This document shows positions 19,801 through 56,365 of a stretch of DNA of 64,000 nt, piece after piece (position 1 is the first letter of the stretch; every line of letters begins with the position of its first letter). Source of the stretch: Phlebopus portentosus (lineage: Eukaryota; Basidiomycota; Agaricomycetes; Boletales; Boletinellaceae); the NCBI GenBank assembly GCA_037892935.1, contig JAYXKI010000001.1, positions 3,100,001-3,164,000 of the forward strand. The letters run 5' to 3'. The notes beneath the pieces were generated by a model. The model made no database searches, was not told the origin of the DNA, and worked only from the letters and a program-made list of their open reading frames with translations. Position numbers and translations under genes: made by a program.

Positions 19801-22031
19801 ATGCTTGGAGACTGGCCCTGTTCAAGACAACTCTCCACTGAGGCAGTCCATGCAACTTGGATGGCAAGGGAAACGAGCTGCGCCGGATACTTCTCTATCC
19901 AAGCGATAAACGTCTGAGCAGTGAAAAGTGCTTCGTTTCCGTAGAACGTCTGCAGTTCCTCGACTGCGTCGCACAGCAAATACGCGAGGTTATTTCGCAT
20001 TTCCGACTCTAACTTTGCGAGCCAGTCATTGATCTTCGGATAGTCCTTGAGAATGATTGGTGACCGGAACTGGATTTCCTCCCCTTCGCGGGATGCGATG
20101 CCGCTAATTTCAGTCTCTTCCTCATCCAACATCATCGTGGCAATACCCGCGAACATCTTCTTCAAATGCTTCATAATCCTAACGATGGTCTTCGAGTTAC
20201 CGATAATTTCCAGAAGGTCTTCATCACCGACGAAGTAGAAGCGAGGGAATGAAGCCCGCTCTCGTTCGAGATATTCACCCAGAGCCTTCTGGATCTTGCT
20301 CAGAAGATCAGCGAGACGCTCTAATGACTTCTGGATACCAGGAATATTCAAGACTTCCACGACATATGGAGTTTTGTTGACCTTCTTCATGACAGTCAAA
20401 AATTCTGAGTTGATGCTTTGAAATCGGTTGGATTCAACGGGAAGCAAATGCTTGATGTCGGCACTTCCGGAGAAGATGCCTTCGAGATATACCCATTGGC
20501 GTTGCACATCGATCCAGACATCTAAGGACAATAGTCATAAGCAAAATCACGAGATAATATTTCTCTCTTATACTCACCGAAGAGAACATGGATCCTGTTC
20601 AGCCTGTCTTCCCAGGCCGACGCATCTTCCTCGAAAACTGAGACGAAAAATGAGTGACAAGACGAGTATTTTATTTATCTCGTCTTCACCTTTATAATAC
20701 GGGGATAACTTCATGGCCGTCAGCGAGTTCAGGTTCTCGCTACATTTAGTGAAGAGATCGTCCCAACCTCTGCCATTATCGAATCAGAGTAAGCATTTTA
20801 GAAAGTACGAAAATTCTTACCGAATAAGTCTGGTTTTGTTCTGATAATTGACTAGATCAAGTGCATAGGTAGTCCATGTCTCCTTGACTTGTTTGATATA
20901 CTCTTCGAGTGCCATCTAGAGTATGCTTCGTCAGGAAAGACGAACTTGACAAATGTTTCAATGCGAGTACCTCTCCTTGTGCTTGAATGATGACCTCCTT
21001 GATGAGTGATTCGTTCTTCTTTAAGTCCATGTCATACACATTCCCGAGAGTCATTCTATGTTCTGCCAGGTCAGAAGAGCTATAACAACGAAACAATCCT
21101 TCAACTCACGTCGTAAGCATGACAGGCGACATGCGCAAGACTTTGAAAAGCTGCTTCCAATGCCTGTCTTTGAGTGCTTCCGATTTCAGCTCTCCTACAA
21201 TGATGTTGCTCTTTAGGAGACCGCGAAGAGTCTCCTGAACATATTCAAACGCAGCATATTGGCGCATGCGAGTTGGCATTTCCTTTGTAGAATTCAACAG
21301 AGCGTTAAGCTGCTCCCGCAGCTTGCGCGGTTGTACACTTGCCCAGGTTATTTCTCGAAGTTCGTTGATCTGTGCCCAGATACCAGACAGAGCAGTCCAT
21401 ACTGCCTTCAAGTCGCGTAACTCCTCAAAGACGGGCTCCAAACGCGTATGACGCGTCAGTTCAAGGTCGAGTGCCTCTTTGGCTCGACAGACAAGGTCGT
21501 ATTCCTCCTGGACTCGGTTCAGCTTGCCCTCGAATACGTTAATGGTGTTCATGGCAGTATCGGCGCGCATGTTTCCCTGTACAGGTCGTGTCTGCTCCCA
21601 TTCCGTAATAATGTCATTGATCTTATTTTCAACGATCTTATCCTCCGCAACAATCTTCAGCTGCAGTCCAGCTATATTCAAGTTTTGAGAAATGCAGCAG
21701 TTCTTACCGAGGGAAAGGGGTACGTACCAAGTTGCTCCTGAATTGAATCGCTCTTTCTCTTCAAAATCTCGTTGTAGGCGCTCCATTCGCCTCGCAGCTG
21801 GTCGCTATACAGCCAATCATCCGGGAACTGGTATCTAAATCGTTCCAAAGTCTTCTCTCCGTTGGCACAAAGATCTATGAGCGGACCCCAAGTCTTTGAC
21901 TTCTTTTTGAGGTCTTGCACGAATGTGATGAACGTGACGGCCGCTGCCGTCGACGAGTTTGAAGGCGCGAACACCTAGCATACAGCTCAGTTTATGCATA
22001 TAATATGTTTAGTAGAAGGACTCGCCTCCAT
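10894..22031 (-). CDS. dhc2: Cytoplasmic dynein heavy chain, motor half (dhc2), 3461 aa
   Basis: Fifteen exons: 22026-22031, 21728-21974, 21110-21671, 20971-21055, 20821-20915, 20690-20769, 20578-20637, 18697-20521, 16291-18640, 15531-16237, 13066-15470, 11957-13012, 11744-11907, 11215-11689 and 10894-11162. All phases agree. It encodes the linker and full AAA+ motor of dynein 1: linker from about residue 1 to 690, AAA1 P-loop GPAGTGKT near 745, AAA2 GPSGSGKT near 1046, AAA3 GPPGSGKT near 1421, AAA4 GVSGSGK near 1764, stalk coiled coil with microtubule-binding domain about 2010-2330 ([14 protein letters not shown]), then AAA5, AAA6 and a complete C-terminus. The tail is missing and is supplied by dhc1 at 52336. 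The first exon (ATG GAG) and its GC-AG intron are inferred, because a stop precedes codon GTG at 21974 in frame. Minus-end-directed transport and nuclear migration are its known roles. Confidence 0.95.
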
Positions 22032-22230
22032 CTTGCCTTCCAATGTGGAAGTTTTGGCAAGAAGTCGTTACGCGCGTCTTCTGTTGTCGTGTCGCGACTG
22101 GTGTCCAAAGAAGGAAGGTGGTCGGTTCACGCTTCTCCACCTTTCTTCACCCTTGCCTCTGACTCCTTCCACGATCCGGACTTGGGCAATCTCACTCTTA
22201 CACTTTCTTCCATATCCCAACATCTGAAAA
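22032..22230. promoter_or_regulatory. 199-bp divergent promoter of dhc2 and SmE; inferred inversion breakpoint
   Basis: The inferred dhc2 start (22031) and the SmE start (22231) are only 199 bp apart and diverge, so both genes must share this interval. If the dynein gene was split by inversion, this is where the motor half acquired a promoter, probably the existing SmE one. It is pyrimidine-rich toward SmE. Confidence 0.5.
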
Positions 22231-22844
22231 ATGGCTTCACGCCAGCAGAAAGTGATGGTCCAACCCATCGTACGTAATCTTCTTAACATCAGAATATCCC
22301 AAACTCATTTTGTCTCTATAGAATGTCATCTTCAGACATCTACAACAAGTGAGCGCAAACTTGCCTTCCGATCGATTGTGCTTTGAGTCTGACGCGCGAT
22401 TTCATTTCAGAAAACAAGAGTATCAATATGGCTCTACGACAACAATGAGATGCGATTGGAGGGACGTATTATTGTGAGTAGAGTGCCTGCATTTCTTTTC
22501 CTCTCCTATCGAAACATTTCTTTGCACGACGGCAATGTAAAAGCAACGCAGATCTTGGACCACATTTCAAACCCCCTAAGAATTGAATACCTTCTTTCTA
22601 GTTCTCTCCTGCGCACCTGCCGTCGCATTGTACTAATTCATATTATTCTCACTAGGGCTTTGATGAATTCATGAACGTCGTGATGGACGATACTGCGGAG
22701 GTATATCTTAAAGAAGCGAAGCCTCGTAGAGAGCTAGGTATGTGCTTCGACAGCTCGCTGGTTTCTAGCGCTTCATACAACCTTTTGATAGGGCGTCTGC
22801 TGCTCAAAGGAGACAACATTACTCTGATCCAACCACTTACATGA
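22231..22844 (+). CDS. Small nuclear ribonucleoprotein SmE, 87 aa
   Basis: Five exons (22231-22269, 22322-22348, 22411-22473, 22656-22737, 22792-22844) give 87 aa, the standard length. The Sm fold is complete: Sm1 with [30 protein letters not shown] and Sm2 with GRLLLKGDNITLIQP. SmE is part of the heptameric ring on U1, U2, U4 and U5 snRNAs in spliceosomes. The intron at 22474-22655 is long for this window (182 nt). The gene is divergent from dhc2 and convergent with PEX10, leaving 113 bp between the two stops. Confidence 0.93.
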
Positions 22845-22957
22845 CGCCCGGCTTAAAACATCTCGTTTCCGTGTCATATTTCTCATGCTAGTTTGTACTT
22901 TCTTGCACGATCATGAATGCAATGCATTAATAGAGAAGACTGGATGAGAGACTATAG

Positions 22958-24281
22958 CTACAAGTTATATATTGGAATCAGACGAGTCAGGTTCAGCGCT
23001 TGCCGACAAAGCGGGCATTCAGCCTTCATATATCTTGTAAGCAACCGTCATCAGCCTACTAGTAATATCAAACATACCTTTTCTCGCCCCCATCCAATGA
23101 TACACGGCCAGCAAAAGAGGTGCCCACATTCAGTTGCACAGCTCGAAGTCCGTTCTTCTAGGCACAGTGTACAATTCCGCCTTGCGCGAACGTGTTCCGG
23201 GATCTGCGCGAAGTCTAGTACCGTGTTTTCATCCTCCTCTGCGGGTATAGGTGCTGAGGACTCGTCAGGCGTGTTCTCCAGGACTTCGGATATTGGTATT
23301 CCGTCGATCGATGCTTCTGTCAAACTTGGCGGTTGTATGGCTTGCTTTCCTTTTTCTGAGGTCTGAGATGACTCTTTAATGTAAGTTCTCCGGAGCTCGC
23401 GTATAGCCGTGGATAAACGGTGCAAAAGCCGGATTATGATGAGAATCCCTAAGAGCGAATATGATGGAGGTCGAGAATTCGGATTCTCGGGTATTGAGGA
23501 TATCTAAGAGAAACGCACGAATAAGTATTCCATCGATTGACAGAAAGAGCAAGGTGTACATACATTCTTCACTCCAAGTACTCTGTTCGCCAAATTATAA
23601 TACACGCCTCTGAAATAAAAGGCAGCGAGATTCATTTCAGATATAACATTCAGAATGCTCGGTAAACGTCGTAAGACTCGTGCTATCCGTTCGTTGCCTC
23701 CACTTAGTCTGTTCTCGAAGCGTGAAATGGCATATGCCGGGAAGGCAGGGAGGAAAACGAGTGCAGCACGCTTCTATGTTCATACAGTAATCAACTAAAC
23801 AAGTCTTCTGTATACATTCAATGAACTCACCCGAGCTGAGGGCGTGCCATTATCGGTGTTGGAGTATTGCCAGATATTCGTGTACTCCTCACCAAGAGTC
23901 TGCTGGGCTGAATGAATAATTAGAACTCATTGGACCAAGAAGTGTGATTACATGAGTATACCTCTGCCTGTCGTGAGTCCATAATATAGCAACTTGGATA
24001 GTAGCTCCAGCTCCTTATCCCACCGCGAGAGCCATCGGTTTCCTACACGAGATATCTTAGAATTAATTCAAGTGCCCTGGAAGTGTTGCGTACCTAACCA
24101 TGACCTCAAAACATTCTCCGCCTGCTCTCGCAGCGAGTAAACATAGAATAAATCGCGTTGATTCGCTCGGACTGATGAGGAAATTAGGTAAGTCACTTAA
24201 GACGTATTGCAGCTTCTCACTTATTTGAGCCTGCTGAGCAGCAGGGAAAGCAGGTAATTTATTTGCTTGTGAACCCGCCAT
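22958..24281 (-). CDS. PEX10: Peroxin-10, RING-finger peroxisomal E3 ligase, 332 aa
   Basis: Seven exons (24221-24281, 24094-24171, 23962-24042, 23831-23907, 23564-23773, 23078-23503, 22958-23023) give 332 aa in phase. The N-terminal Pex2/Pex12-type membrane domain contains [37 protein letters not shown] and [12 protein letters not shown]. The C-terminus is a C3HC4 [29 protein letters not shown] continuing to [13 protein letters not shown]10 forms, with PEX2 and PEX12, the ligase that ubiquitinates the import receptor PEX5. The last intron falls inside the RING. Start 24281 gives the expected N-terminus and shares a 119-bp divergent promoter with the MGR2-like gene. Confidence 0.92.
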
Positions 24282-24400
24282 GGTTGGGCAGAAAGGGGGA
24301 GGATATTCACGTGCACAAGCGTCGATCCAGCTGGCCAGAGAAAGGACACGCCTGACGTGCCGATTGGCTTCAAAGTTCAAGTTGCTCAGCTTCTGCGATC
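24282..24400. promoter_or_regulatory. 119-bp divergent promoter of PEX10 and the MGR2-like gene
   Basis: The two start codons face away from each other across 119 bp, so the promoters and both 5' UTRs must overlap. I see no TATA box. Confidence 0.55.
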
Positions 24401-25048
24401 ATGGCGCAGCGATCACCTCAACGTATGGAGGGCCCGACGGTATGGCAAAAGAGCAAGTCATTTCAGATTGATTGTTGCACCTTAAGATCATGGCTGACTT
24501 CATTATTTTTTGGTTTTCAGTGAAGTAAGCGTGTGTTCTTTCTATCCTGTAGCTCACCGTGTCATGACATGATGCTCATTTCTCTATTGAAGAATGGGCG
24601 CTATGATGGGTGCAGGTGTCGGTCTTACCATCGGTTTTCTCTTTGGGTCGTATAGCATCTTGAGGTAAGTTCTCCGATACTCGAGTCACACGAGACTCGA
24701 TATTCACAGAATACGGCATAACCCTCCTTCAGAAACGGTGCTGGACCAAGAGGTGTCATGGCCACGCTCTCGCAATACATGCTCGGTAGCGCGGCCAGCT
24801 TCACTTTCTTCCTCTCCATTGGTTCTGTGCGTTCAATTCCCTTTGTCTATAGACTACGTCGAATGACCCGGAGCTCTTGACTGACACTCTTATTCTTCTT
24901 TCTCGTCTGGAAGGCCATCCGTAATGACGCACAAATGGACGATATACAGTACCGACTCGCCCAACCCGTTATGCACTCCAGGATTTCCGGCGCATCTTTA
25001 ATTAGAGCGCGCTGGGAAGCTGAAAAACAGAAACGGAACGATATATGA
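24401..25048 (+). CDS. MGR2/ROMO1-like TIM23 complex subunit, 118 aa
   Basis: Exons 24401-24452, 24521-24524, 24593-24664, 24733-24826 and 24914-25048 give 118 aa. The family signature is clear: KMGAMMGAGVGLTIGFLFGS, NGAGPRGVMATLSQYMLGSAASFTFF and SIGSAIRND. These are two short glycine-zipper transmembrane helices of the inner mitochondrial membrane. Mgr2 gates lateral release of preproteins at TIM23. The N-terminus VWQKMKMG fits the family WDKxKMG only if a 4-nt exon is used behind a GC-AG intron (donor A/GCAAGT). A two-exon alternative with donor GTCATT gives VWQKSKMG and skips it. The charged C-terminal tail of about 40 residues is longer than in yeast. Confidence 0.85.
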
Positions 25049-25837
25049 AACAAGTAGCCCCGGATCAAAAAGTCGTTAAGGAAGTGGAGGCCTTCGAAGT
25101 GAAATGATCTATTAGTTTTCCCTACTCTACCTTTACCGCTTTGAACGCATTGCTTTATTCACGCATTCGTATCCTTACTTACTCTCACTTCCAGTAGGAA
25201 TCACTACTCTGCTCTGACTTCAATATTAATAGGAGTAACGTTACTGGTCATTTGGTTTGCAAAAGAGCATCCACGGTTGAACATAAGCACAAACTCCCTA
25301 GCATCAGATATCCGAAAGAATGAGAAGCTGCAGGAAGAGATACGTATAAGTGTACGGTACGGTACGGGGCGTCGCGTACTAATGAGTGATTGTACAAAAC
25401 GTCTCAAGACTCGAACCATGGACATGACGTGCATGAGTAGTGATGATCATTGACAATTGACAAATGCTCTGAAGTGTACTAGTCCCGGGGAAACATATGG
25501 GAGTTTGCAGAGAGCAAGAGCTGGCCTTGCTCGGAGCGCAATGCGGTGTCTGGTCGAGCCGGCTCGATTATGTATATCGTACACTATCCTTGCAGTGTAG
25601 ACGTAGACGAACAGATGAAGTGGGTGCGCGCATATGATGATCGTGAGTCGCTGAGAGTTCGCCAGCGGGTGGAAGGGGAAGAGGGGCGCCGCATGGTCGG
25701 AGGCAGATTAGGGAGTACAGCAAATTGACGAAGGCGTGCAGGCGTAATTCATGGGTGACGTAACAGTGCAAGCTGTCACTGGAAGATAGTTTTTCAGTAT
25801 ACGACGCAAGGGAGCTGCGAGAACCGGGTCATCATTT
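25049..25837. other. Intergenic region
   Basis: Convergent 3' space. It has a small TACGG triplication near 25354-25370. I see no gene. Confidence 0.4.
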
Positions 25838-26903
25838 CTATCCGCAAAACGACCGGAGAGAAACAGGTCTCCTCTTCCTCATCCGTCGCTGGTTTCGTCC
25901 TTCACGGACCACTTCAACACGGCACGGACGAGGCATGAGTGGTTGCGGTCTTGAAATCATAGGTCTCCTTTTCTCTTCGTCAATCGTATATCTCCGTCTA
26001 CCAGCGATCCGACGGAACCACGCAACGAAACGGCTGATCGCGCCCCATCGTCGTTCCGAAGGGATCTCCTCCGGCAGCTCGAACGAAAACATGTCGTCCT
26101 CGTACCCGCTAAAACGATAGTCCTCGTATAAGCACTCGCCGTTGCAGTCGTACGGGAGCTTGCAAAATGGCGCGTGGTGAGGCGGGTGCGGGCAGGTGCA
26201 GAAATGCGAGTCTCGGTATGAGTAGTCGTAGTACACGGGCTCGTCTGAGAACTTGACCGAGCGCTTCGCAGTGAGTGTGCTCTTTCCACTCTTTCCACTC
26301 GATACTGAGGGTGAATGCTGGAGGATGGAACGAGGCGGAGGGGGAGGTTCCACCTTCGTCTGACTTGATGAATCGGATGCTGCTTCTGAAGAGACGGAAG
26401 CGCGTCTGAGATGCTTCGGCGTTGGCCCGTCAATGTCGAGCCCGCGAAACGTGCTTCCTGCTACCGAGCCTGGTAACGTTGAAGTATCCGACTCCTTGCG
26501 CTTGATTGGCCGCGAGATGAAATTTGGCCGCTTCGACCAGCGTTTCGCCTTTGACGAGGACGACTCGGGAAGGGTATCTTCCTCGACTTCGAGGATGTCT
26601 TCAGGAATGTTGAGTACGGATGCCCTGCAATTCGGGCAAGTTAAGGATAACTAGACAAGGATGCCGCAGAGGCCGTAAGAAACAATACACGAGCCACGTA
26701 ACAAGAACCGCAGACAAGGACATGTCAAACACTCACACGTCTTGATGGCAAGGCGGCCCCATCCGAGCTATAGCTCGATCCACCAGCCACATAATGCATA
26801 TATCGATCTGAAGCTAAATCATGCAAAATATTTAGTTTTGCTCTATGGGCTCATTGGTGGATGAACTGACCTGGATAGCGTGCTGTAGGGTGTCGCAGGA
26901 CAT
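25838..26903 (-). CDS. Hypothetical protein with RVxF-like motif, 298 aa
   Basis: I do not recognise the function. Three exons (26871-26903, 26737-26813, 25838-26624) join in phase to give 298 aa. The N-terminus is ordered and hydrophobic (IDICIMWLVDRAIARMGPPCHQDV), followed by the acidic ILEVEEDTLPESS. The middle is Ser/Pro rich with PPPPPRSILQHSPS. Then comes KRSVKFSDEPVYYDYSY, an RVxF-like motif that could dock protein phosphatase 1, and a Cys/His cluster (HFCTCPHPPHHAPFCKLPYDC) that could bind a metal. The C-terminus is strongly basic. The start at 26903 is the only one that carries the frame through both introns. Confidence 0.6.
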
Positions 26904-27361
26904 TTGTGATGATGTCTGGGATGGGCAGCAAGAGGAGAAGATAACGACACAGGGACCATTGGCTCGAGCGGAAAGTGAGTACTAATAACCGCTGGTGAAG
27001 TACTGTACACGTGTATTGTGCATGTTAGAAGGGCATGCGGCTTCGGTGAGTCAAGCATGACTTCACGGTGTATGTAAAGACCCTTCCGCGCTTCTCTCTT
27101 ACATACTCATTCCCCTGGATATTATGCGTCCGCGGTCCGAAGAATTGATCGTGTACGAAAGGCGCAAGGTGTTGGGGTTCAGCATGGTGCTGAGGTGAGG
27201 ACCACGATTATTCGACTATTCGACAATGCACCGAAGATCGACGCGACGCAGATACTTTCCACAAAAAGTAATTGCCTTATGGGAGTCACTCCATATTCAA
27301 CAGAGTGAAGGGTCGTCGTTCACGATGTTCTTCTACACCAGTCTAAGAGTGATATGTACTT
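26904..27361. other. Intergenic region
   Basis: Spacer between two minus-strand genes. I see nothing in it beyond presumptive promoter and 3' UTR sequence. Confidence 0.4.
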
Positions 27362-28519
27362 CTATTCTCTTCTAATCAAATGATCAAGTAGCCTTCCACA
27401 CTTCCCTACCGTTCTCCTCGACAATACTCCCTGGACAAACTTCAAGCAACTTCCAATCACTTCAACGCCCTTTTCTCGAAATATATGCGCTGCATCCGAC
27501 GCGATTTTCTCGTATCCTTCCATCGCAAGGGCCAAAATTGTCGGTCCGGCGCCGCTCAAACAAATTCCAAGAAGACCTGGGTGCGTCGTGGGAGTTAACT
27601 GCGACGTGACTTCAGGAAGACCTGGAATGAGTGCCCTTCTATACGGCTGGTGTACCCGGTCCTGCATTGCATCGTAGATAAGCCCTGGATCGGGCGGTGA
27701 TTGAGAAAGTGCCGTGGTTAACACGGCTAGTCGCTGTAAATTGAAAACCTAACGCATATATGCTGTTACTTCACACTCGAATCGAATGAAGAGTCAGGTG
27801 GGACTTACTAGATCTTTTCGAGAGTAACTTTGAGGTAGCACGTCTCGCGCCGTTGCAGTGCTTAGCTCAAACCGCGGCACAATTGCCACGGCTTTGATGG
27901 ACTTTGACCATCCGAACCGCACGTAATGGCCAATGCCTTCCGGTGGATGCGGTGGATTCTTTCCCCAATTCTCTCCAGCATCAGGTGGGTATTCGGGTAA
28001 GACTTCGCTCAGTGGAACTTGGGCCCGCGCCTGCGCATCGTCATCAAGTTCACGAAGGTAGGATCCAACAAAGCCTCCAATAAGCGCCGCAGTCACATTA
28101 TCCGGATGACGCTCTACCATCAGTGCGAAATCAAGCATGCGAGTAATGGAGAGGTTGAGTCGGGCTAACGAATTTGCCAGGAGAACACCAGCGACGACTG
28201 CCGCACCAGACGATCCGAGTCCGCGACCAAACGGTATTTCATTATGAGCATGGATAGCAAGGTGTTCAGGGAAAGAAGAAATATCATGACATCGCAGGAC
28301 GTATAAACAGACTCGCGTAGTCAAGTTCTTGTACGGATCAAGCGGAACTTCGTCTGCACCTTCTCCGGAATACGAGATAGTGGGCGGATATCGAGGATTG
28401 GAATCTGCTATAGATGCTTTCAATGTCAGATGTAAAGATAAAGACAGGCCAACGACGTCGAACCCTGGGCCGATATTCGCAGATGTAGCGGGCACTCGAA
28501 TGGTGACTGTTTGAGCCAT
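27362..28519 (-). CDS. THR1: Homoserine kinase, 365 aa, with probable C-terminal frameshift
   Basis: Two exons (27809-28519, 27362-27748) give 365 aa. This GHMP kinase phosphorylates homoserine on the way to threonine. Motifs are VRVPATSANIGPGFDVVGL-like at the start (reads IRVPATSANIGPGFDVVGLS), the ATP loop PFGRGLGSSGAAVVAG, and the GHMP C-terminal GICLSGAGPTILAL. After REKGVEV the frame reads IGSCLKF and a tail unlike the family. The next frame reads WKLLEVCPGSIVEENGREVW and stops at 27384, which is the expected ending. So one base appears to be missing near 27443. The enzyme may tolerate the altered last 20-30 residues, or this may be a sequence error. MET2, which competes for homoserine, lies at 56848. 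Confidence 0.9.
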
Positions 28520-36106: not shown

Positions 36107-37189
36107 ATGCCTTCACTCCTGAGCCCGAATGGCAGTGCAAAGTCAAGCAGAGATGATGCTCTCAAACCTTCGATGTCGACTAACTCGAGATCTGCATTCC
36201 CTCGCCCACCCGTCTTTGAGGATAAACTGAAAGAGCGAGAGTTTCTAAAGTTCAGGCTCGCACAAGCGTTTCGCATTTTCGGACACCTGGGCTTTGATGA
36301 AGGGGTAGCAGGTCACATCACTGTCAGAGTAAGGCCCGGAATCTTTGTATCAACTTGATCGTACCATAGATAATGGGTTTTCAGGATCCTGTCAGACCAG
36401 ACTGCTTCTGGGTCAACCCATTTGTACGTCTTGAATATCAATATTACTGTTCCTGATACCATTATTCTCTTCAAAAAGGGGCTCCATTTTTCTCTCATTC
36501 AGCCCGCGGACCTGCTGCTCGTGGACCACGACTGCAACATTCTGGATGAATCCGGTCCGAGTCGGCTCCTGAATACTGCTGCCTTCGCAATTCATTCCGC
36601 CATTCACGAGGCTAGGCCTGATGTACTATGCGCAGCTCACACTCACTCCGTATATGGACGAGCATTCTCCACCCTTGGACGCGAGCTGGATATCATAACC
36701 CAAGATTCCTGCGCCTTTTACCAGGATCATGTCGTGTACAAGCAATTCAATGGAGCGGTTTTGGCCGAAGAAGAGGGCAAACACATTGCTGAAACGCTTG
36801 GTGACAAAAAGGTATCATCACTTTACTAATCTTAGGCATTGGTTTGACATCATATCAACTCGTCCAGGCTATCATTCTTCAGGTAAATATGCAATGAACT
36901 GTCCTCAACACGGATATTCGCTTACATCCTTGAATGCAAGAACCATGGTCTGTTGGTTGCCACAACGTCCATCGAAGCAACCGTTCACTATTTCGTTTCG
37001 CTCGAGAAGTGTTGCAAAGCCCAACTGATGGCGGACGCCACCACCGCACAAACAGGGATCAAAACCGTCCCTATCGGAGAGAAGGAAGCCGCTGAAACAT
37101 ATCAAACCGTTGGCGTTGGAGGCTGGTTTTCTGGAAGAACGCATTTCCAAGCGTTGGAGAATCGTGAGGGTCAGAAATTCGCCCTTTAA
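36107..37189 (+). CDS. Class II aldolase/adducin-domain protein, 285 aa
   Basis: Five exons (36107-36328, 36385-36423, 36479-36811, 36868-36882, 36941-37189) give 285 aa. The fold is the class II aldolase/adducin domain, found in fuculose- and ribulose-phosphate aldolases and many fungal proteins of unknown substrate. Visible motifs: GFDEGVAGHITVR, CFWVNPFGLHFS, AHTHSVYGRAFS (two zinc-binding His), and NHGLLVAT with the third His. The 15-nt fourth exon (AIILQ) is required to join the two halves in frame. The first 45 residues are disordered. It is probably a cytosolic metal-dependent enzyme; the substrate cannot be told from sequence. Confidence 0.88.
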
Positions 37190-37364
37190 CGAAATTGGAT
37201 GCAAGGAAACATAAATAACATGAACCTACGATCATTGGAAGTAAAGCCACAGATATCAAAATTGATAGTACATTTCACGAATAACGAATATAGTTGAAGA
37301 ATACTAGTCCACAGTCTTTAAACCGGTTCAAAGAATGGAAAGCATCACCATCTTCAAGATTTCT

Positions 37365-39345
37365 TCAGTCAGATTCGTAACGCTTCTCGGGGTAGCTATC
37401 GCAATTGACTTTTTCATACGCAGATCTTCGGTCCTGTTCTGGATCCCAGAAGTCTGGGATGTGACACTGGTCTAGTTCGTTATCCTTCTCGAAATGTGCA
37501 TGTGGAAAGTCCGACGCGGAAAGTCTGTTCTGGACCATCACTGTAGCGTTGCGATGTGATTAGCTCTCATGCTAGAACCCGATCGTGCAGGAAACGCTTA
37601 CAGTAATGATCGAGATTTTTATCAAAGTTATTTCGGCACAGCGCAGCCAGTAAAACAGCGGCTATTATCAGAATTACTGAACAGATGTACAGTGTGCCGA
37701 AGAACCGCCATGTCGTGAATGTCCAAATAAACATAGCCGATCCCAGTCCAGCAAGTAAGGAGCACAGGAAAACAACGCCGAAACCGAGAAAAACAGACGT
37801 CACTCGTTTCCATTCACGACGCAGAGCAAACCATCCCTGTGGCAAAAATTAGAAGTACCCGCCGGACAGAAAGGGAAGGCATCTATCGACTTGCCAGTGC
37901 AATCCAGAGTGGAAGCGTCTGAACGTGACATTACTGACGTTGAATGTTATTCTACGCGATCATCTAAGGATATACTCACAACTGCCATGAACACAAGAAC
38001 AGCCCCGTATATGTATTTGTGATCCTTGACGATCGAGCTGAAATAAGTGTTGAGTATTTGATCCACAAAAAATGCCATCGTTGCGGGAAGAATAATTCCG
38101 GCAACCTGTGCAACAACGGAAAATCCAAGAAGGACCTATGCATCAAAGAGCGTCATTAGCGGCAGCAGAATCAGTAAGAGACAAAGGATCAGTTACTCTG
38201 TACATCCGGCGCATCTCGCTAGAGACTTGCACGGCGCGCCATGGTCTCTTATTATAAATCTGATTTGTGACATGAGAAGCGATCAATCGGTAGGACACTG
38301 GATCCCTTCACTTACATGACACAGCTTGTATGCAAAATAGGCTTCGGTTACAATCGACAACACAGATCCCCCAAGCAGCGCCCCCTGATGACCGTCAGTG
38401 ACTCGAAGCTTAATGGGAGAAGTTAACATGTACCTCAGCAATATGCCGGTGGCGAAAGAAGTCGATTCCGAAGAACTGATCTTCTGAGCCACATCTTGCT
38501 TGGTCGACCAAGCGCACGAGAGATGTCTTCACGAGAAAGGTCACTATGAAGCGTGCCAAGGCCCATACTGTCGATAAGCAGCGAGCCACGAAAATAAAGA
38601 TGCTGGCAATAGTAAATCACAATACTCGTATGAATGATTGAAGATGATGTGCTTACATATGAGGTATGGACTCTCTCGCCAAAGCGTAAATTGTCACGAG
38701 AACAAGGTAAACATGCAGTACGATGAAGACAACATCCTCTAAGCGATTATCACGAAAGCTTTGAGTGCATCAGCAATACGGAACTTGAATAGTATTGCTT
38801 AGGGTAAACGTACTGATTAGCTGTAAAAGAAGCAAGCATTGGGCATAATTGCACTCCCTTAACTCCTATCTCGGACAAAGGAATCTTTTGGCAGTTCAAG
38901 GAAGGAACGTCGGGACAACTTTCAAATCCGCCATCAGATAATAGACTGTACAAGCTCTGTGTTGCGTTCAAGGGGGTAGGATAAGCAGTCACTCCTTTGC
39001 GACGTGCTCCATTGTCGTCGATTACGAAAAGAGCTGTTCGAAGGATAACCTGAGCACAAGCAGAGAGAAAGGAAATGATGAAATATGCAGTCGAGCGCTG
39101 AAAGAGAATTCGACGAATCTGGTGGTTTCAACGTGGGACTAAGAACTAGGACATAATTATGAAAATAAGCTCACAAAATCTTTAATCATCCAGACTAAAT
39201 GTCGGTTGCGCCAACCTGAAAGGGAATGAAAGAAATGCCAGTCAGCTGTCGGCTGACGCCAGGTCGAAGAAACAGAAGAAAGGAGGAACAGAGGAGACGC
39301 GTCGCACAGTGCCCTTAGGACAATATATAACGACGCCCACTCCAA
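37365..39345 (-). CDS. Polytopic membrane protein of unknown function, 489 aa
   Basis: Ten exons (39175-39345, 38814-39118, 38657-38758, 38434-38602, 38316-38384, 38197-38259, 37980-38135, 37895-37918, 37602-37836, 37365-37540) keep phase and give 489 aa. I do not recognise a named family, although similar multi-pass proteins are common in agaricomycetes. About six to seven hydrophobic helices are visible, including FIISFLSACAQVILRTALFV, VFIVLHVYLVLVTIYAL, FSVVAQVAGIILPATMAFF and two back-to-back helices in 37602-37836. A loop with several Cys (ESCPDVPSLNCQKI) lies between helices 1 and 2. The C-terminal about 60 residues are soluble and acidic. The intron at 37837-37894 is GC-AG (GCAAGT donor). 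An in-frame 42-nt segment in exon 1 could also be an intron. Confidence 0.7.
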
Positions 39346-40110
39346 TCTCAGGGGCCAAAGCGATGTTCTGATAGTCCGATGGTATACTTCTCTTCTAAAT
39401 CAGATTGTTGGACGTGAAGCATAGATGCCAAAAATAATGCATGCCAGTGTCCCGTACTGCATCTGACGGCTGAAATGATACATGGACTGATGAATACTTC
39501 TCGGGACCTTGAAACCGCTGATGCTTGAGTAACACCATAGGTGGTTCATAGGTCGTGGCTACTGGAAGAGAGCTGATAGTTTGTGGCAGGCATCAAGAAG
39601 CGATGCAGAGCGAGCAGAACTGTGTGTGATTTATGTTATGAAGGACATCAAGTTGATGAGATGGATTGCTGAGCTACGGTCATCAAAAGGCTGTGAAATA
39701 AATGCTCAGATCTAGACAGAAGAAGCAGATGGCCGACGAGAATGACAAGTCAACGACCATCACGATTCTGTTGGAAGGGGACAAATTCAAGTTGAAGTTG
39801 AACGGCTTCAAGTTAACCAAAACACAATTGCATAAGATGATCCCTCTATTTCCCGATCCCAGCCGATCACATGTTTGGCTTGGCAATGGATAATGGCATG
39901 TTTGTTTCGGCCGAAAGTACACCTACAGAAAGGTGAAAAAGACGGAAAAAAACTCCTAAAAATCGGTATGCGATATCAGAAAGAATGCATTTCGTCAGAT
40001 GCATGTCAATTACGACTCGAGAGGGCAAGGCCAATGAGAGAGGCGAGAAGGAGTCGCTGCAAATATCTCGACTCTCTCGTCGGAAAGTGGAAACAGTGAC
40101 GACCTAGGAG
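39346..40110. other. Divergent intergenic region
   Basis: Space between the membrane protein and the ammonium transporter. Short ORFs at 39702-39893 and 39875-40099 lack family support, and I do not call them genes. Confidence 0.4.
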
Positions 40111-40160: not shown

Positions 40161-40234
40161 GCACTTTAGAGCCGTCGGTCGTTGGAGAGTATACAACCCG
40201 ACTCGACTCTCTCTCTTTCATCGCACCGTCGACA

Positions 40235-45289: not shown

Positions 45290-45700
45290 GTTGTGGAGCA
45301 GAAAAGCGAGCCAATAATCTCTGCCGTCGCCTTGTCGTCGCGGTCGTGGATAGAGGGCAAGGAGGAGGCAAGGCCGGCCTGTATATGATATGAAACGAGC
45401 GTTGCAATGGCGGATGTGCGCGTCCAGAAAAGGGAATATCTACTACGTAATAGATCGGCAAACAGCGATGATATTGGACCCGTACCCGTACCCGTCAGAG
45501 CTCAGAGATTGAGTTCGTGATGCGTGACGCGTTGAGTATAACAAGCGTGACATGCCCGATCCCGTAAGTCACTCGCTCGCTGACCTGACCCTCGGACCGC
45601 GTTACTTCTGTGGGCCATAATACAAAATCTGCCCAATCTCTCTATATGCGCTCTCACATTTCTCTTCTTTCTTTCCCGCACCCTTTCTCCCCCTACCTCA
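45290..45700. other. Divergent promoter region
   Basis: 411 bp between divergent starts, ending in a long pyrimidine tract before the ATG at 45701. I see no gene. Confidence 0.4.
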
Positions 45701-47838: not shown

Positions 47839-48305
47839 CGTATTGCGACTACGTACACGCTTTCCCCGAGGCGTCACGGATGGACAGAATACCCTGCCAG
47901 CTTCGTTGTCGAACATCTCCGTCATTGACGTTCGAGACCAGACGAAATATCTTGGATGCAGTCTGATTTTTTACCTATCAATACGAGTGGACCGCTTAGA
48001 CGTTGTATACTGATACGCTCATTGTTACCGACATTGTCGGTCTAAACCACGAAAGAGAAGCGAACATTGACACGGACGGAGAATGTTTTCTATTTTGTCT
48101 TGGATATCAGTTTGGGCTTCTGGGACGGAATTACAGTTAATGGATATGTATTACTGATGATATTTTCATGTTTCGGTTGATGTTGTTTGTTTTACATAAA
48201 GAATCAATGCATTTCGGTATGGTTGACCACACAGCAGCATATCAGTACACAATTATCAAAGAGTCTGTCTTTCTTATGATCATCTGAATTCACATATTTT
48301 GAACT
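47839..48305. other. Convergent 3' region
   Basis: 467 bp between two stops. I see no gene or repeat. Confidence 0.4.
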
Positions 48306-49325
48306 TTAGAGACGCGTCTCGGTACCACCCCGATCGCGTTCAAATGCGTTTTTGAAGAAGGTCGTGAGCTGATTGTACGCATCCTCAAAATCTCTCTTGT
48401 TTTCCTCGTTCTTGAGGTCTGCACGAGCTGCTGCCCAGCCGTGATGCCTTAAATATGCTGTCAGATGCTATTGTCAAATAAACTGGCAGATATGCGTACA
48501 TGTTAGGATAATACTTGTAGGCAATCTTGTCCGCGAAGGACTTAGTCTTGAGCTTTTCAATCATTTTGTCGTATTCGTCTTTTGGCTCGTCTTCTGAGAT
48601 GAAGAGACCAAGTGGGACTTGGAGGTTGTCTGCATCAGCTGCAGAGAGCATACTAAGGATATAGATTGAAATGCATAAGAATTAGCCCATGATTAAGTTG
48701 GTAATAACACCTACGCGGGATGCAGAGAAGCAACAGCATCGAATACAGGGCTCTCCTTGGAGCCAGCAAGGATGGTAACCTTCCCACCCCAACACAGACC
48801 GTACGCGCCGACCTTCTGCGCTCCATCCTTTCTCAACTCCTCACCGACACGAATTAATCCCGCGACAGCCTTCTCGGGCTTTGCAGGGCCAGCAAAGAAT
48901 GCCTGCAATGCATCCTTATCTCCCTGGGACTTTGGAGGGTACCGGTCAACGGGGAACGGCTTATCGGGCTCGAATAAATCCGGCACGACGACCCTCGCGT
49001 TGAGCGTTTGCGCAAGTGCATCCGCGCCCTGCTGAGTCTGTGGGTAGAAGCCGAATATGTCGAAGACTGTCACGATTGCGAGCGAGCTTTTTGGTGGACC
49101 GGTGACGTATACGCGCTGGAAGCCTGCGAAGGGGGTATACGAGCCCTCGGGAGTGTAGTCATGCTTCACAGGCGGGATGGAGCAGCAGGCAGCGTTTGTG
49201 TTGACGACACGTTGCGTGCCTTGGGATGTTGTCGTGCTTGACATGGCGCGTGCTGGAGCCTGGGGATGAGCGGATGTGTGGGACTTGTTGATGGTGTGAA
49301 GGAGAGCACGGAGGCGGGTAAACAT
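48306..49325 (-). CDS. Dienelactone hydrolase family protein, 301 aa
   Basis: Three exons (48715-49325, 48500-48652, 48306-48447) give 301 aa from the ATG at 49325 or 274 aa from 49244. It is an alpha/beta hydrolase of the dienelactone hydrolase family: YVTGPPKSSLAIVTVFDIFG, the nucleophile elbow AYGLCWGGK with Cys, and the catalytic His in MHHGWAAAR. Family enzymes hydrolyse cyclic lactones or other esters and thioesters; the fungal substrate is unknown. The longer form begins MFTRLRALLHTINKS, basic and amphipathic without acids, which resembles a mitochondrial presequence. The shorter form (MSSTTTSQ) would be cytosolic, so dual targeting is possible. Confidence 0.88.
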
Positions 49326-49906
49326 AAGTGATAGTGATGGGTACGCGGATGGGACTGGTATTGGTATATGCATGCGATCGACAGACAAATCCAACCCCGT
49401 GCCGATCATCCTATCACTGTATCCGTATCCGTGCAGAAGCCGGCCCTCAACATGCGCTCTCTCTTCTCGTCGTCAAGAATAAGTTGATATTGATTCAGAA
49501 CCATCCTCGACCAGCACCTGGTAGACTACTATACCGGGCGCAACTCTCTGTCTATTCTCGTGGCTGCGGGTATTTGGCCGTTAGGAGAGAGTGAAACTTT
49601 TTGAAAGAGTCCAATTAAGCCGGAGCGTCTTCCAGGCTGTCCTGTCCTTTGCTGCAATGGAGGAGGCTTGACTTGGTGACTCGTACATACAATACATACA
49701 TTAATATAGTCTGTATTTACATTGGTCGAGTCTGTTTCCCGATACAAGACACTGCATTTCATGACCTATCGGAGTAGATGTGGGTATGATGACGCTCCGG
49801 AGACAGAGCATCATACTCGACGTCATCATCCCTGTCACCCTCTTCATACAAAACTACTTGTGATTTTCTATTTTGCGGTTAATTCTCCCTCCATTATATC
49901 CACACG
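49326..49906. other. Divergent promoter region
   Basis: 581 bp between divergent starts. I see no gene. Confidence 0.4.
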
Positions 49907-50373
49907 ATGCTACGTTCAACCTTGTCTACTACTTTACCTCGCCGTTCAGTCTGCGCTATAAGGTCTCTCCACGCTTCTCCGATAGCCTCCAAGACAGTAA
50001 CAGAAAAGGTCAAGGAGACAGCGCACAATGTTAGTCCAAGGCGTTCCCGGCCAAAGTTTGCCGTCCTATTGACTTCATTTGGCCCCAAGGTCAATTTGAA
50101 AGTAGGGCAAACCCTTGCAAAGGGCTTCGAAAAGGGTGAAGAAGTAACGGAGAAGACTCAGCAGGCAGCTGGCACAGCCAAGTCGAAAGCACAAGAAACA
50201 GCTGGCGCCGCAAAGTCTAAAGCAGACGAATCCAGTGAATTGGCGAAGCAGAAGACTAATCAGGTCAGTAATATCCAAGTTTTGGTATGATAGTGCTGTT
50301 TTTATTGTTGAATTAGGCGTCAACGGGGGCGACGGAAGCAAAAGAAGACTTCAAGAAGGAGATGCATAAGTAG
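49907..50373 (+). CDS. LEA-like mitochondrial protein, 117 aa
   Basis: Three exons (49907-50029, 50090-50263, 50317-50373) give 117 aa. The N-terminus MLRSTLSTTLPRRSVCAIRS is basic and hydroxylated with no acidic residues, a typical matrix presequence. The rest is Ala/Lys/Glu-rich with 11-mer-like repeats (QQAAGTAKSKA, QETAGAAKSKA, DESSELAKQKT), the pattern of group 3 late-embryogenesis-abundant proteins. Such proteins fold into amphipathic helices on drying and protect membranes and enzymes. No catalytic residues are expected. It is convergent with the dehydrogenase gene. Confidence 0.72.
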
Positions 50374-50517
50374 TCGAAGCTATAGCCCTTCTGCGGACTT
50401 CGCGTCTTTATGTACAAGTTTACTGCATCCATATGTATCAATATCTGCATTCCTCAGCAATTATGTCCGTGATGAACCGCTCGTCTCGACAGCAATCATT
50501 GAATATATCATCAAAAT

Positions 50518-51664
50518 TTATGGATAACGATACTTCTTTCTCGCAAACCACTCAATCAGACCCGGACATACAGTGTAATACAACATAGGCACAACGCGAT
50601 TGAATGCATGAATGAAGACATCGCGTTCTCCTCTGTCAACTGCAAGAATGCACCTCTGAGCTACGTCCTCGCGTTTCAATCCGTGTCTGCTAGGATCCGC
50701 TTCCCGCACCGGACCGGCGTCTACGGCAGAAGCTCGGAAGTTACCTTCGATGGTCGAGGGAAGGACAAAAGAGAAATGGATCAAAGGATGTTCGATGGCG
50801 AGAGATTGATAGAGAATGAGTGAGGCGGATTTGGTGGAGCCATATAGTGCGCGTGTTGGCGCGGGTGTGACGGCTGCAAGGGACGAAAGGAGAAGGACGG
50901 AAGGCGAAGGCGAAGTACGCTCTAGAAGTGGAATCTCCGTGGAAAATAGATGATTAGAAAGTAGTCCTAGGAACTTGAACTATGGATAACTCACGAACGA
51001 AAGTGCAGCTGTGAGTGGTCCGTAGAAATTCCCTTGGAGAGCTGCACCAGCGATTCGAACACCTTCTTGGACGCCTTCCAAGTTCGCGTCTGGTAATGGC
51101 TCGCTGTCTTTTCGCTCCAATCCAGTAGTTTCGATCAGAGGTCTAAGAGACGAGACGCCTGCAATGACAAGTAGCGTATCAAGGCGTCCCCATTCTTTAG
51201 AGTAAATACATCAGCGACCAGAATAATTCGACTGTCGCTCCAAATATGAGGGCTACAGAACGCTCACCATTTTCAATCCTCTCTCTTATCCGTAGCATAT
51301 CTTCCGCATCTGAGAAGTCTGCGACCTCAGAGATCACCTTCTCGCCTTTCCTCGCCGATTGATATACGGATACACATTCTTCCCTCGCGTGCTCTACATC
51401 GTTATTCCTAGCAACCAGAAACACGTATGCTCCTCTTCTTGCATACTGTAATGCGATCTCTCTCCCTACTCCTGAGCTTGCACCGAGGATAAGAACGCGT
51501 TCTTCGGCTTGTGGGATCTTCTTTTGCCTTCGTGTTTGGCTACTGGATCGCCGATGGAGGAAGAAGAGGAGGGAAAGGAGAGGGAGGGATGCGAAGAAGT
51601 ATTGTCGGTGGTTATGTGCGAGATCTGAGAGAGTAGGAAGGTAGAAAGAGGAACTCAGATTCAT
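50518..51664 (-). CDS. Short-chain dehydrogenase/reductase, membrane-anchored, 337 aa
   Basis: Three exons (51268-51664, 50995-51194, 50518-50934) give 337 aa. Residues about 20-38 are a hydrophobic anchor (YFFASLPLLSLLFFLHRR). The NAD(P)-binding motif is LILGASSGVGRE, followed by LVIAGVS (the NAG position). The active site is SSLAAVTPAPTRALYGSTKSA, with Ser and the Tyr-x-x-x-Lys pair. The C-terminus is hydrophobic with a basic end (ARKKYRYP). The arrangement resembles ER-anchored 11-beta-hydroxysteroid-dehydrogenase-like or ketosphinganine-reductase-like enzymes; the substrate is not evident. It is divergent from dhc1, with 671 bp between. Confidence 0.87.
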
Positions 51665-52335
51665 CTCTTCGAGAGAGGAGAGTGCTCAAGTTCAAGAAAG
51701 AATAAACACTGGATCGACGTCGATGATCAGCACTAATACCTTACCTGAATTTGGAAATGAAGAAGTGCATACGCACTGGAACTAAAAAAATCCGCGGTCA
51801 TAATCGGTTTATGAACACAGAAAGGAGAACCAGAGCGACCACTATCGAATGTATCCATTGAATTGCAAACATTGATACAAATGGACGTCTTGCTTCAATT
51901 TACACAAAAAAACTCATTTCCGAACCGTGAAAATGTTACCCAAAATGGAAAAAGAGCCAATCGGATGAGAGCTTACTCGTGCCGATCAAAATTTCTAAGG
52001 GCTCGGAATGACGGTGAATCATGAGGGTCTGGACGCTTAGTCATGGCTGCCTTTTACGGGCAGTTACCGACGCGTATTGCACGTAACGCACGCAAAGGGT
52101 CGCTCGACATTCACTCGACGCTGTAGACGGTGATAGTGACTATACCCAGGACAGCGACTTCAAATCGCTGTATACAGCTACGTCTTCTCGTCGTTTGCAC
52201 AATACGCAGGCGAAGTGGGCGTACTTTTGACGCACGGAGGCTCTTTCATAAATTTCTTTAACGACCAAGTAAAGCACACGTCAATAGTTCCTGTTACGCG
52301 CTCCTCAAGCCTCAGTATCACGATTCTCACGCGAC
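51665..52335. other. Divergent promoter region of the dehydrogenase and dhc1
   Basis: 671 bp. If the inversion model is right, this is the original promoter of the full dynein heavy chain gene. A 7-bp-stem hairpin lies at 52151-52171. I see no gene. Confidence 0.4.
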
Positions 52336-55300
52336 ATGGCCTCGCTGGAAGCACCAAACGTGCCATTGACTCCGCCGACAAATGGTACACTTGGGTCGGC
52401 GGATGTGTTAGTCGATGGCGCGTCGCCCGCGCCTGCAGCCTCGACATTCGACCCCTCGCTCATGCGGTCGTATCTCCTCGCGCTTCTTCCTCCAATATTT
52501 GGTGCATCACGAAACGAGGTAGATGAGCAAGTGTTCGACGCCGATTTTGATGAGCGCGTTGTGCGTTTTGCTGGCGAAGGAGGTGGGCCTTTGTATGTCG
52601 TGAAGAGGAAAGAGGAGGTGGAAGGTACGTGTACATGCTCGCCGATTTGCCTGTAACTCCTAGTTTGGATCCATGCTGATGCCGGATGTGCCTTTAGATG
52701 ATGCGCCGCCTCCATATACATACCACGTAACTTCATCCTTAACCTACTCTCCGGCACACGTTATGACCATCGCACTCATCAAACGAAGTGCAACGCTCGA
52801 TCCCCTTTTACCGCTCGCACAACAGCTACACGTAATAAACTTGTTTGGTGGGGACGAGACGCCGTATGAGAGTTTACATTCTTTGGTTAGCGGCGCGGTG
52901 AAGCCTTGGTTCGAGGCGTTTGTTGGTGCGCGAGGAGGTGGGAAAGATGGAGATAGCAAAATGGGTACGCAGCAATACGTACCTACATACTGGGGTTACT
53001 ACTGATTTTTTACAATGAAGGGATACCAATAACGAAGAAAAAATTCGCTGAACTCGAGCTTTCGCTACTCCACCTCCAGCAAAACGTCGAGATACCCGAA
53101 ACTCATCTGATCATCCACCCCATCATCCAGCGAGCAGTAGAACAGGCGCATGCGCAGAACATCCGTCCAAACATCTCTCTTATCCCATCTAAGACTCTCA
53201 ACGACTCTACGTTCCTCAACACCCTACAAGCGCATGTAAACACGTGGATTAAGTCCATACTGGCTGTCACGAAGCTCTCGAGAGATGTATCATCAGGTAC
53301 TGCGTCCCAGGAGATTAACTTCTGGTTGAGCATGGAGCGTGCGCTGGAAGGCATCGAAGCCCAACTCAGGAGCGATGAAGTGAATATGGTGATGGATTGC
53401 TTAAGAAATGCTAAACGATTCCATGCGACAGTCAGCTTCATCGCAGATACGGGTTTGAAAGATGCCACGGATATTGGTACGTTTGAAACTCTTGTTTCCA
53501 AAGCGTCAAACTAATCACCGTTCCAAAAGTGCATAAATACAATCAGCTCATGAAAGATTTCCCACTGAACGAGCTGCTCTCCGCTCCTGATCTTGACAAA
53601 ATCCAAGAAGCTGTAGTGCTCATTTTTGGGCACATTAACCGCAAGCTCAAACTTTCTCCCTATCCCGTTCGCCGTGCTCTTCCTCTCGTGGAAGCTATTT
53701 CGCGCGACTTCAACGACCAACTCCTTCGAGTGCTTACCTCACATCGTCTCGCATACCAACCCTATGACACATTCGATCGATTATTATCACAGACCATGAC
53801 AATCTTTCGCACATGGGACGATGAAATCAAAGATTTCACGAACGTCGCTCGTGAGGTGACCCGAAAACGTTCTGAGCGGTTCATCCCTATCAAGATCCAA
53901 CCCGCGCATGCCAAGCTACAAGAACGAGTTCGGTATCTTCGTGAATGGCGAAAGCAGCATGAGCAGCTCGCCGTGATGACAGGCCCGACGAAAGGTCTCG
54001 GAGCTATTGGGAAAGACGTTGGTGGCATGGACATGGAGGAAGAAGTGAGGGAAGCTTACGAAATCATCAAGAATATCGACATACTTGACGTCTCAACCGG
54101 TATGCAATCTAAGTGTTTGGCATGAATATTGCCTTATTATTCATTTCAGAGGGAGCGGAAATATGGGTTACTGCCGAGAACGCATACAACGAGCGAGTAG
54201 CGCGGGTGGAGAACCAGATCATCTCTAGATTACGTGACCGTCTTGGTACGGCAAGGAATGCCAACGAGATGTTCAGGGTGTTTTCCAAGTTCAATGCACT
54301 CTTCGTTCGCCCGAAGGTAACTACTGATTCTTGATATAAGTTGGACAAAACTGATTTTCAAACGGTTCAGATCCGTGGAGCAATCCAAGAGTACCAGACA
54401 CAACTCATTGATTCAGTGAAGGAAGATATCAAGCGACTTCATGACAAGGTACGGGACTCGAAGTCTACCGTAATAAAATTTATTCACTCAAGTCTTTGCA
54501 GTTCAAAACCCAATATCGATTCTCCGAAGCCTACCATATGTCTCAAATGCGTGACCTTCCTCCCATAGCAGGAGCAATTATTTGGGCGCGTCAAATTGAG
54601 CGTCAATTATTAACCTACATGAAACGCGTTGAAGATGTTTTCGGGAAGGGCTGGGAACTGTATGCTGAGGGCCAAAAGCTCCAGTCAGAAAGTTCAGCTT
54701 TCCGAAAGAAGCTGGACACTCGACCTGTGTACGATGCGTGGCTGCACGACATCAATCGTCGGGACATGGGCGTCAATGGTCGTCTCTTCGAAATTGTCCG
54801 GTTACGCGGTGGAGGCTATCAACTTGCTGTGAACTTTGATCCACAAATAATAACGCTCTTCAAAGAGGTCCGAAATCTTCTGTGGTTGAATTTCCAGGTC
54901 CCACATGCCATCACGAATATGGCAAAGGACGCGAAACGCGTCTATCCACATGCTGTCAGCTTAATGGAGACCGTGCGAACATACGGCCAGACTCTTGACC
55001 TCGTGGAGAAGAATAGAGGAATCGAGTGGTTAGTTGCCGAGTATCGTAATGACGCGCAGCATATGATCACGCGGGGGATGAATATTCGCTGGGATTACTT
55101 TGTGAATCAGTATGATACTGCACGATATGTTCCGTCAGCAGATGGCCGGGATAATAGGCACGTTCAGTTTGTTCGGGAGTTCGCCAGTGTTATTTCTGTC
55201 TTACAAGTCTGTCCCATCTCATCCGCTTAAAACTCCATCTCTGATTGTCCTTGATTATAGGACAAAACGAACAATCTGATCGACTTGTACAAAGACATTC

Positions 55301-56365
55301 TGCGAGCCGTGGAAGACTTGTCGACTTGTCCATATAGGCACGAATCGTTTGCTGAGTTACTTGGACGCATTCAAGCGGCGGTAAGGACTTGATATGCTTC
55401 ATTGTTGCTTATTGCTAATTTTGTTCTCTGAAGATCGATCGATTAAACTTGGAAGGTTACGCGAATCTCGAACACTGGGTAGCCGAGCTCGACAAACGCA
55501 TCGAGGAAATTCTTCAGGTTCGATTAACAGCGACCATCCAACGATGGTGCAGCGAGTTTGATAGGACAGACGACGACACTCGAACAACTGTGTTGCGTGA
55601 CGTTACAAACAAACAACGAGGGGACAAGAGACTAAAAGACGACAAGCACCAGGATGGGCATCTTGTCATCAAGCCTATTGTCCATGAGATCCGCATACAG
55701 AACCAAGTTATCTTCCTTGATCCGCCTATTGAATATGCCCGCCAGACATGGATAAAGCAGCTGCATGAGTGGCTTGCAGTAGTCTGCAGGCAACAAAGGA
55801 TACAGAGTTCGCGGTACGAGATTGGCTTGCAGATGCAGGTTGGTGTTGTCTCGGAGACGACATACACTTCCTTGGTAAGTGGACTGTAACGCAGGTGATG
55901 GGATTTATATACTAACAGGCTGCTTTTTAGCTAACGCGGTTTGCTGACAACACGCTCGAGCGACCCTTTGCTCTCATAGAGAGCAAGGTGCAGCAACTAA
56001 AGGACTACGTGGCAAAATGGCTGCAATTCCAATCTCTATGGGACCTAGAAGCCGAATACGTATTTAACCGACTAGGCGACTCGCTTGCTCATTGGCAGCA
56101 ACTGCTTACGGAGATCAAGAAGGCGCGCTCGACGTTCGATACGTCGGAAACGCAGAAGTCGTTCGGCGCCTGCGTCATCGACTACGAACAGGTGCAGGCT
56201 CGGGTGAATGCTAAATACGACGCCTGGCAGCGAGACATACTCAGTCGCTTCGGCGTGAAGCTCGGTAACGCTATGAAAGAGATGCATGCGCAGATCCTCA
56301 AAGCGCGTAACGAGCTCGAGCAACATTCAATCGATGGTCTCACAGGAGCATCACGAAGATTCTGA
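52336..56365 (+). CDS. dhc1: Cytoplasmic dynein heavy chain, tail half (dhc1), 1175 aa
   Basis: Ten exons (52336-52624, 52698-52964, 53021-53476, 53530-54099, 54150-54316, 54371-54448, 54502-55206, 55261-55380, 55434-55874, 55931-56365) keep phase and give 1175 aa. It corresponds to the N-terminal tail (DHC_N1), which dimerises the heavy chain and binds intermediate and light intermediate chains. Landmarks are [58 protein letters not shown] and [18 protein letters not shown]. There is no AAA module. The last residues, [19 protein letters not shown], stop where the family continues into the segment found at the start of dhc2 ([16 protein letters not shown]). dhc1 and dhc2 must pair to make one functional heavy chain. 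Confidence 0.93.

Follow-up and report, generated by a model that had tools for sequence, protein, structure and literature searches.

A 64,000-nucleotide stretch of DNA filed under Phlebopus portentosus (hereafter the window; C1:3100001-3164000 of a 38.37-Mb, 23-contig assembly) carries the cytoplasmic dynein heavy chain as two linked genes, dhc1 and dhc2, whose broken ends lie beside genes that also accompany them in other mushrooms. The locus is a new example of an already known split gene: the split, the linkage of the halves and their inverted arrangement have all been published, and the conserved neighbours at the cut ends are the new element. The neighbours at both stumps appear to be old, and we give an even chance to their having been left by a two-break rearrangement, probably an inversion, with one break in the tail part of the dynein gene and the other between the 3' end of MET2 (homoserine O-acetyltransferase) and the promoter of SmE (small nuclear ribonucleoprotein E). 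For an essential 500-kDa motor that has withstood being cut in two, conserved neighbours at the cut ends offer a checkable account of where the break lay, where the new promoter and gene end came from and which lineages keep the scars.

Gene models were built with a small splice-aware gene finder made for the window and corrected by eye. The two halves lie on the same contig in opposite orientation, with a gap of ~30 kb between them:

10894..22031, minus strand: dhc2, motor half of the cytoplasmic dynein heavy chain, 15 exons, 3461 amino acids
52336..56365, plus strand: dhc1, carrying the tail of the heavy chain, 1175 amino acids in 10 exons, Pfam DHC_N1

Motif placement and the spliced models bear out the initial annotation, which had described a heavy chain in two linked, opposite-facing halves with lengths adding to about 4636 residues (1175 + 3461 = 4636). 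The N-terminal tail domain (DHC_N1) falls on dhc1 and the AAA ring (AAA_6) on dhc2, which retains all four Walker A motifs (P-loops). dhc1 is 98% identical to protein P0001 of Sanghuangporus weigelae, and dhc2, compared over residues 1-600, is 100% identical to P0121 of Sanghuangporus sanghuang; these identities mark the window as DNA of a Sanghuangporus. Six-frame family searches of the 38.37-Mb assembly returned four matches to DHC_N1 exons and two to AAA_6 exons, all at the dhc1/dhc2 locus; each half is single copy, and the DHC_N1 and AAA_6 searches found no second dynein heavy chain in this genome.

These features place the locus within a described system. In excerpts of the study by Brunsch et al. 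(2015, PMC4540427), from which all our statements on that work are drawn, the heavy chain of Agaricomycetes and Dacrymycetes is split at residue 1180, and dhc1 and dhc2 are reported on the same scaffold within 500 kb, without exception found, and linked to matA, with neither the intervening genes nor the orientation of the halves conserved. The window halves share the split site, the domain division, the single copies and the position on one scaffold within ~500 kb. On sequence grounds, dhc1 and dhc2 most likely represent the agaricomycete split heavy chain, each gene being expressed independently of the other. Schizophyllum commune resembles the window in its split at residue ~1180, in halves that face opposite directions on one scaffold, in a genome without further heavy-chain sequences and in added ends of the same kind (GLVGAPRRF and MPQATASPSNSST). 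It differs in distance, its halves being 413 kb apart against ~30 kb in the window and its dhc2 586.5 kb from matA against ~2.03 Mb in the window genome; its break neighbours are not described in the excerpts (PMC4540427). The linked, inverted geometry had been put forward as new, whereas the S. commune halves, 413 kb apart, had already been reported as opposite-facing (PMC4540427). Our literature search, which covered listings and the starts of abstracts and left most subscription papers outside its scope, found no prior account of the neighbours at the break, or of dynein together with mating type and the mitochondrial intermediate peptidase. The matA-like locus of the window genome (G000:C1 1070947-1081004), a peptidase M3 gene beside several homeodomain matches, lies on the dynein contig, ~2.03 Mb from dhc1/dhc2. 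Another strong homeodomain match lies on contig C14.

The junction between the halves could be placed to within about a residue, and each half carries a short added end:

56336..56365, plus strand: added C-terminal tail of dhc1, GLTGASRRF, with the stop codon
22026..22031, minus strand: first exon of dhc2, ATG GAG, 6 bases, followed by a GC-AG intron at 21975-22025

The S. weigelae dhc1 aligns to residues 22-1161 of human DYNC1H1, SID of dhc1 corresponds to human SVD at 1157-1159, and SST of dhc2 is placed on human residues 1161-1163. The halves meet near human residue 1160, and the claim that they are complementary without overlap or gap stands, with at most one residue missing in the human alignment. 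Two details of the initial annotation did not hold: dhc1 ends in RRF rather than at GAS, and the dhc2 start had been misplaced because the 6-base first exon and its GC-AG intron were overlooked. The human chain lacks any equivalent of the last nine residues of dhc1 and the first eight of dhc2.

The position of this small exon bears on whether the halves are rejoined at the RNA level. Excerpts of a study of Giardia describe Hsp90 as likewise one protein whose gene lies in distant parts, split over 777 kb and rejoined by trans-splicing (PMC8494341), and the dhc2 intron acceptor lies right where the dynein-homologous part begins. The window shows no sign of such rejoining, however. dhc1 terminates at a stop of its own, after a conserved tail, and dhc2 starts at its own start codon. 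A single GT occurs among the final 48 coding bases of dhc1, in phase 1, and the dhc2 reading frame continues in phase 0 past the 6-base exon. Both proteins were detected by antibodies in S. commune (PMC4540427). The phase mismatch, together with the conserved dhc1 stop and dhc2 start, led us to reject trans-splicing as highly improbable.

Both added ends are conserved. Relatives of dhc1, dhc2, PEX10 and MET2 in other species came from protein tables that each hold the best 120 matches (for dhc1 the best 120 of 304, for dhc2 the best 120 of 2162), and the counts given here and below refer to the matches so listed. An S[IL][ED]G anchor occurs in 117 of 120 dhc1 relatives. Past it run 7 to 20 residues (8 or 9 in 95 of the 120), with a Gly-rich linker between anchor and end, and the C-terminus is exactly R[RK][FY] in 105 of 120; R[RK] falls within the last five residues in 115 of 120, and some exceptions look like faulty gene models. 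The window dhc2 start resembles M[ED]..SSTAxAV, the start found in 97 of 120 dhc2 relatives; 23 of 120 are without it, 7 of which begin further in at MIELC. The residues conserved on the two sides of the split, at the end of dhc1 and the start of dhc2, are present in the window genes. A dhc1 end that stays fixed behind a linker of varying length may well have a function, most simply to help the halves stay together, and the nearly fixed RRF end behind its variable linker is a possible contact site between them. In the excerpts, Brunsch et al. report no added interaction sequence and consider that the similarities at the break might have a role (PMC4540427).

Each cut end has a close neighbour in the window:

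22032..22230, no strand: 199-bp spacer separating the start codons of the head-to-head pair dhc2 and SmE
22231..22844, plus strand: SmE, 5 exons, Pfam LSM, E=4e-16
22958..24281, minus strand: PEX10, Pex2/Pex12 domain and RING, exons placed against P0121 and the last exon by eye
56848..58305, minus strand: MET2, an alpha/beta hydrolase with an S. weigelae relative named MET2

The LSM domain of SmE, and the alpha/beta hydrolase domain and MET2-named relative of MET2, agree with the identities and positions first proposed for these genes. MET2 stands tail to tail with dhc1, ~0.45 kb downstream, and an alternative MET2 model ends at 56807. The 199-bp spacer is likely to serve as a promoter shared by dhc2 and SmE. 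Public dhc2 models of S. sanghuang (P0121, 3770 residues) and Coniferiporia weirii (P0122, 3768 residues) are fused to PEX10; because SmE sits between dhc2 and PEX10 in the window, these fusions probably reflect faulty annotation, in which the 6-base first exon and its GC-AG intron appear to have been overlooked.

To follow these neighbours elsewhere, we inferred that two genes share a contig from equal listed contig sizes within one species, the listed figure being the longest contig of a protein cluster, and counted only species present among the matches listed for both genes compared; the taxonomic orders are our own assignments. dhc2 and PEX10 lie on a common contig in every such species (21 of 21), across Hymenochaetales, Gloeophyllales, Polyporales, Boletales, Agaricales, Corticiales, Amylocorticiales and Jaapiales, and on contigs as small as 64, 131, 179 and 182 kb; in Hohenbuehelia their tags are 007403 (PEX10) and 007406 (dhc2). 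For dhc1 and MET2 the figure is 10 of 22 species (Hymenochaetales 5/5, Gloeophyllales 3/3, Polyporales 2/11, Boletales 0/2, Agaricales 0/1). In five of the ten the shared contig is longer than 2.6 Mb, which makes co-location weak evidence; the stronger cases are Coniferiporia, Neolentinus, Abortiporus, Heliocybe and Rickenella. The tags of MET2 (000324) and dhc1 (000325) are consecutive in Coniferiporia weirii, with dhc2 14 tag steps off on a 208-kb contig, and dhc1, dhc2, MET2 and PEX10 all share one contig in Rickenella. The window was read from a single assembly, which leaves room for a false inversion; the Coniferiporia tag order and the Rickenella contig, both informative on linkage and silent on orientation, make such an artefact barely credible.

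The neighbours also tend to follow their own halves where the halves have come apart. Among species with dhc1 and dhc2 on different contigs, PEX10, where listed, accompanies dhc2 in 7 of 7, and MET2, where listed, accompanies dhc1 in 2 of 7, dhc2 in none and neither in 5. The pairs are kept even where the halves are parted, because Heliocybe and Abortiporus hold dhc1 with MET2 on one contig and dhc2 with PEX10 on another. Each stump thus tends to keep its own neighbour while the middle is reshuffled. Taking all species listed for both genes, MET2 is found with dhc2 in 3 of 14. One of the three is Sistotremastrum suecicum (P0219, P0308), with both genes on a 374-kb contig, the one representative of the earliest Agaricomycetes in these comparisons, which cover no Dacrymycetes.

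Linkage between the halves themselves is less regular. dhc1 and dhc2 lie on one contig in 11 of the 45 species listed, belonging to Hymenochaetales, Corticiales, Amylocorticiales, Boletales, Polyporales and Agaricales, and on different contigs in the other 34. As to which orders keep the halves linked, a point raised in the initial annotation, linkage occurs in these six, and most of the species listed have the halves on different contigs. Of the parted species, 23 have a dhc1 contig under 300 kb and are little informative, and 11 have one over 400 kb. Among these 11, Agaricus bisporus H119p4 (P0107, P0156) carries the halves on contigs of 1.93 and 3.46 Mb, with tags 10055 and 704, at odds with the published claim that no larger contigs part the two genes. 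Linkage of dhc1 and dhc2 is not universal. Such counts would suit a reciprocal translocation, or a transposition with three breaks, in place of an inversion; either would yield the same two new junctions, with linkage of the halves secondary or partial. Against this stand the published report that the two genes were always found on a common scaffold (PMC4540427, excerpts) and the 11 species, over six orders, in which one contig holds both, and we regard an exchange of this kind as unlikely.

We favour instead, at about even odds, a reading in which the present neighbourhoods go back to the break itself. One break would have fallen within the tail part of the heavy chain, at human residue ~1160, and the second in the spacer between the MET2 3' end and the SmE promoter; reversing 22.03-56.37 kb in the window puts SmE directly past MET2, in the same direction. 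Through this event dhc1, the truncated 5' part, would have acquired a downstream end beside MET2, with which it is now tail to tail. dhc2, the 3' part left without a beginning, would have received a start codon and a divergent promoter, and it now faces away from SmE at 199 bp, head to head. Rearrangements since then would have changed, in many lineages, how far apart the halves lie and which way they point, with the stumps tending to keep their new neighbours. The two proteins would assemble without a peptide bond, perhaps aided by the dhc1 tail (Gly-rich linker and RRF end) and the dhc2 head (ME...PSN). Only tentatively do we put forward this sequence of events in full, in which a single inversion in a mushroom ancestor cut the gene, gave dhc1 the 3' flank of MET2 and dhc2 the promoter of SmE, left the neighbourhoods as scars and the added ends as a non-covalent clasp. 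A break between MET2 and SmE would, if true, be a simple route for a broken gene to stay expressed, and neighbours kept in other mushrooms make this mode of gene breakage testable.

The geometry may also be a later accident, the gene having been divided in place, by a new stop and a new promoter, or otherwise, and its parts then shuffled within the chromosome. The conserved neighbours would then have arisen soon after the split or be the ancestral neighbours of the region. Distance and orientation do differ between species (PMC4540427, excerpts; tags of Coniferiporia and Hohenbuehelia), the A. bisporus H119p4 halves are on different contigs, and opposite orientation is expected by chance half the time. 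The stumps of Heliocybe and Abortiporus nonetheless keep their own neighbours with the halves parted, a pattern most simply explained by junctions as old as the split. We consider the later accident possible but not probable.

Several observations weigh against an inversion at the break. Opposite orientation alone is not evidence for one, because any opposite-facing pair on one chromosome is one inversion apart and the arrangement is not diagnostic. The single-inversion footprint proposed at the outset is accordingly supported in part, by the conserved neighbours of both cut ends and not by the geometry, which proves little. The dhc1-dhc2 distance varies, from 14 tag steps in Coniferiporia to 53 in Hohenbuehelia, and the 34-kb distance is neither general nor provably ancient. 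To this are added the 34 parted species, 11 of them with the large dhc1 contigs, and the 12 of 22 listed species in which MET2 is apart from dhc1. Contig sharing in other species carries no gene orientation, and SmE was followed within the window only, with PEX10 as its stand-in elsewhere. No inverted repeat marks the breaks, the two 3.1-kb break regions matching over 12 bases at best; repeats or duplications at the breaks are not expected to survive so long. For the clasp, the AlphaFold2 model of dhc1 has a mean predicted local distance difference test (pLDDT) score of 49.5, with a predicted helix up to residue 1164 and a tail of low confidence beyond it, and is too poor for judging that tail.

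An unsplit outgroup adds to these reservations. We take the CNAG tags of Cryptococcus neoformans to follow gene order. Passages of papers give its unsplit heavy chain as CNAG_05894 (4630 residues), flanked by CNAG_05892 (phosphoglycerate mutase), CNAG_05893 (hypothetical) and CNAG_05895 (CFT1), with neither a dehydrogenase nor a glutathione S-transferase among the neighbours found in those passages. The label homoserine O-acetyltransferase is attached there to two genes, CNAG_05122 and CNAG_02270, and one nearby gene was found for each, CNAG_05124 (SEY1) and CNAG_02269 (ATG18). The literature search found no usable Cryptococcus tags for PEX10 or SmE. These few neighbours do not show the predicted adjacencies, and SmE beside MET2 was seen nowhere in the material covered, in which these passages stand for the unsplit outgroups. 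Little gene order may survive between these classes. An outgroup contig scan found no dynein heavy chain in the viral contig collection. Sixteen loci (L018-L033) on contigs filed as bacterial metagenome-assembled genomes encode dynein heavy-chain pieces, and these contigs look like eukaryotic contamination.

Two-gene heavy chains have arisen separately elsewhere in basidiomycetes, in Ustilaginomycotina and in Wallemiomycetes (PMC4540427, excerpts). Ustilago maydis dyn1/dyn2 are divided by an independent split within the fourth AAA module, and the Wallemia genes by another after residue 1979, between AAA1 and AAA2 (PMC4540427).

The genes that flank the dynein halves on their far sides, and the next gene past MET2, are as follows:

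8847..9927, minus strand: glutathione S-transferase, 3' of dhc2
50518..51664, minus strand: short-chain dehydrogenase, 5' of dhc1
58918..60651, minus strand: AAA ATPase with MIT domain, next past MET2

We take the dehydrogenase to be 3-ketosphinganine reductase-like and the ATPase to be VPS4-like. A GHMP kinase gene (26851-28519) lies ~28 kb from MET2 (56848-58305); it presumably resembles homoserine kinase, with homoserine as a substrate common to it and MET2. Adjoining PEX10 is a small plus-strand gene (24401-25048) that by eye we take to be like the ROMO1/Mgr2 mitochondrial membrane protein. A gene-poor 3-kb stretch (36700-39700) is single copy save for two weak matches on contig C9 (100-115 bases, 74-76%), and the gene at 6065-7541 encodes a DUF6698 domain (E=5e-45).

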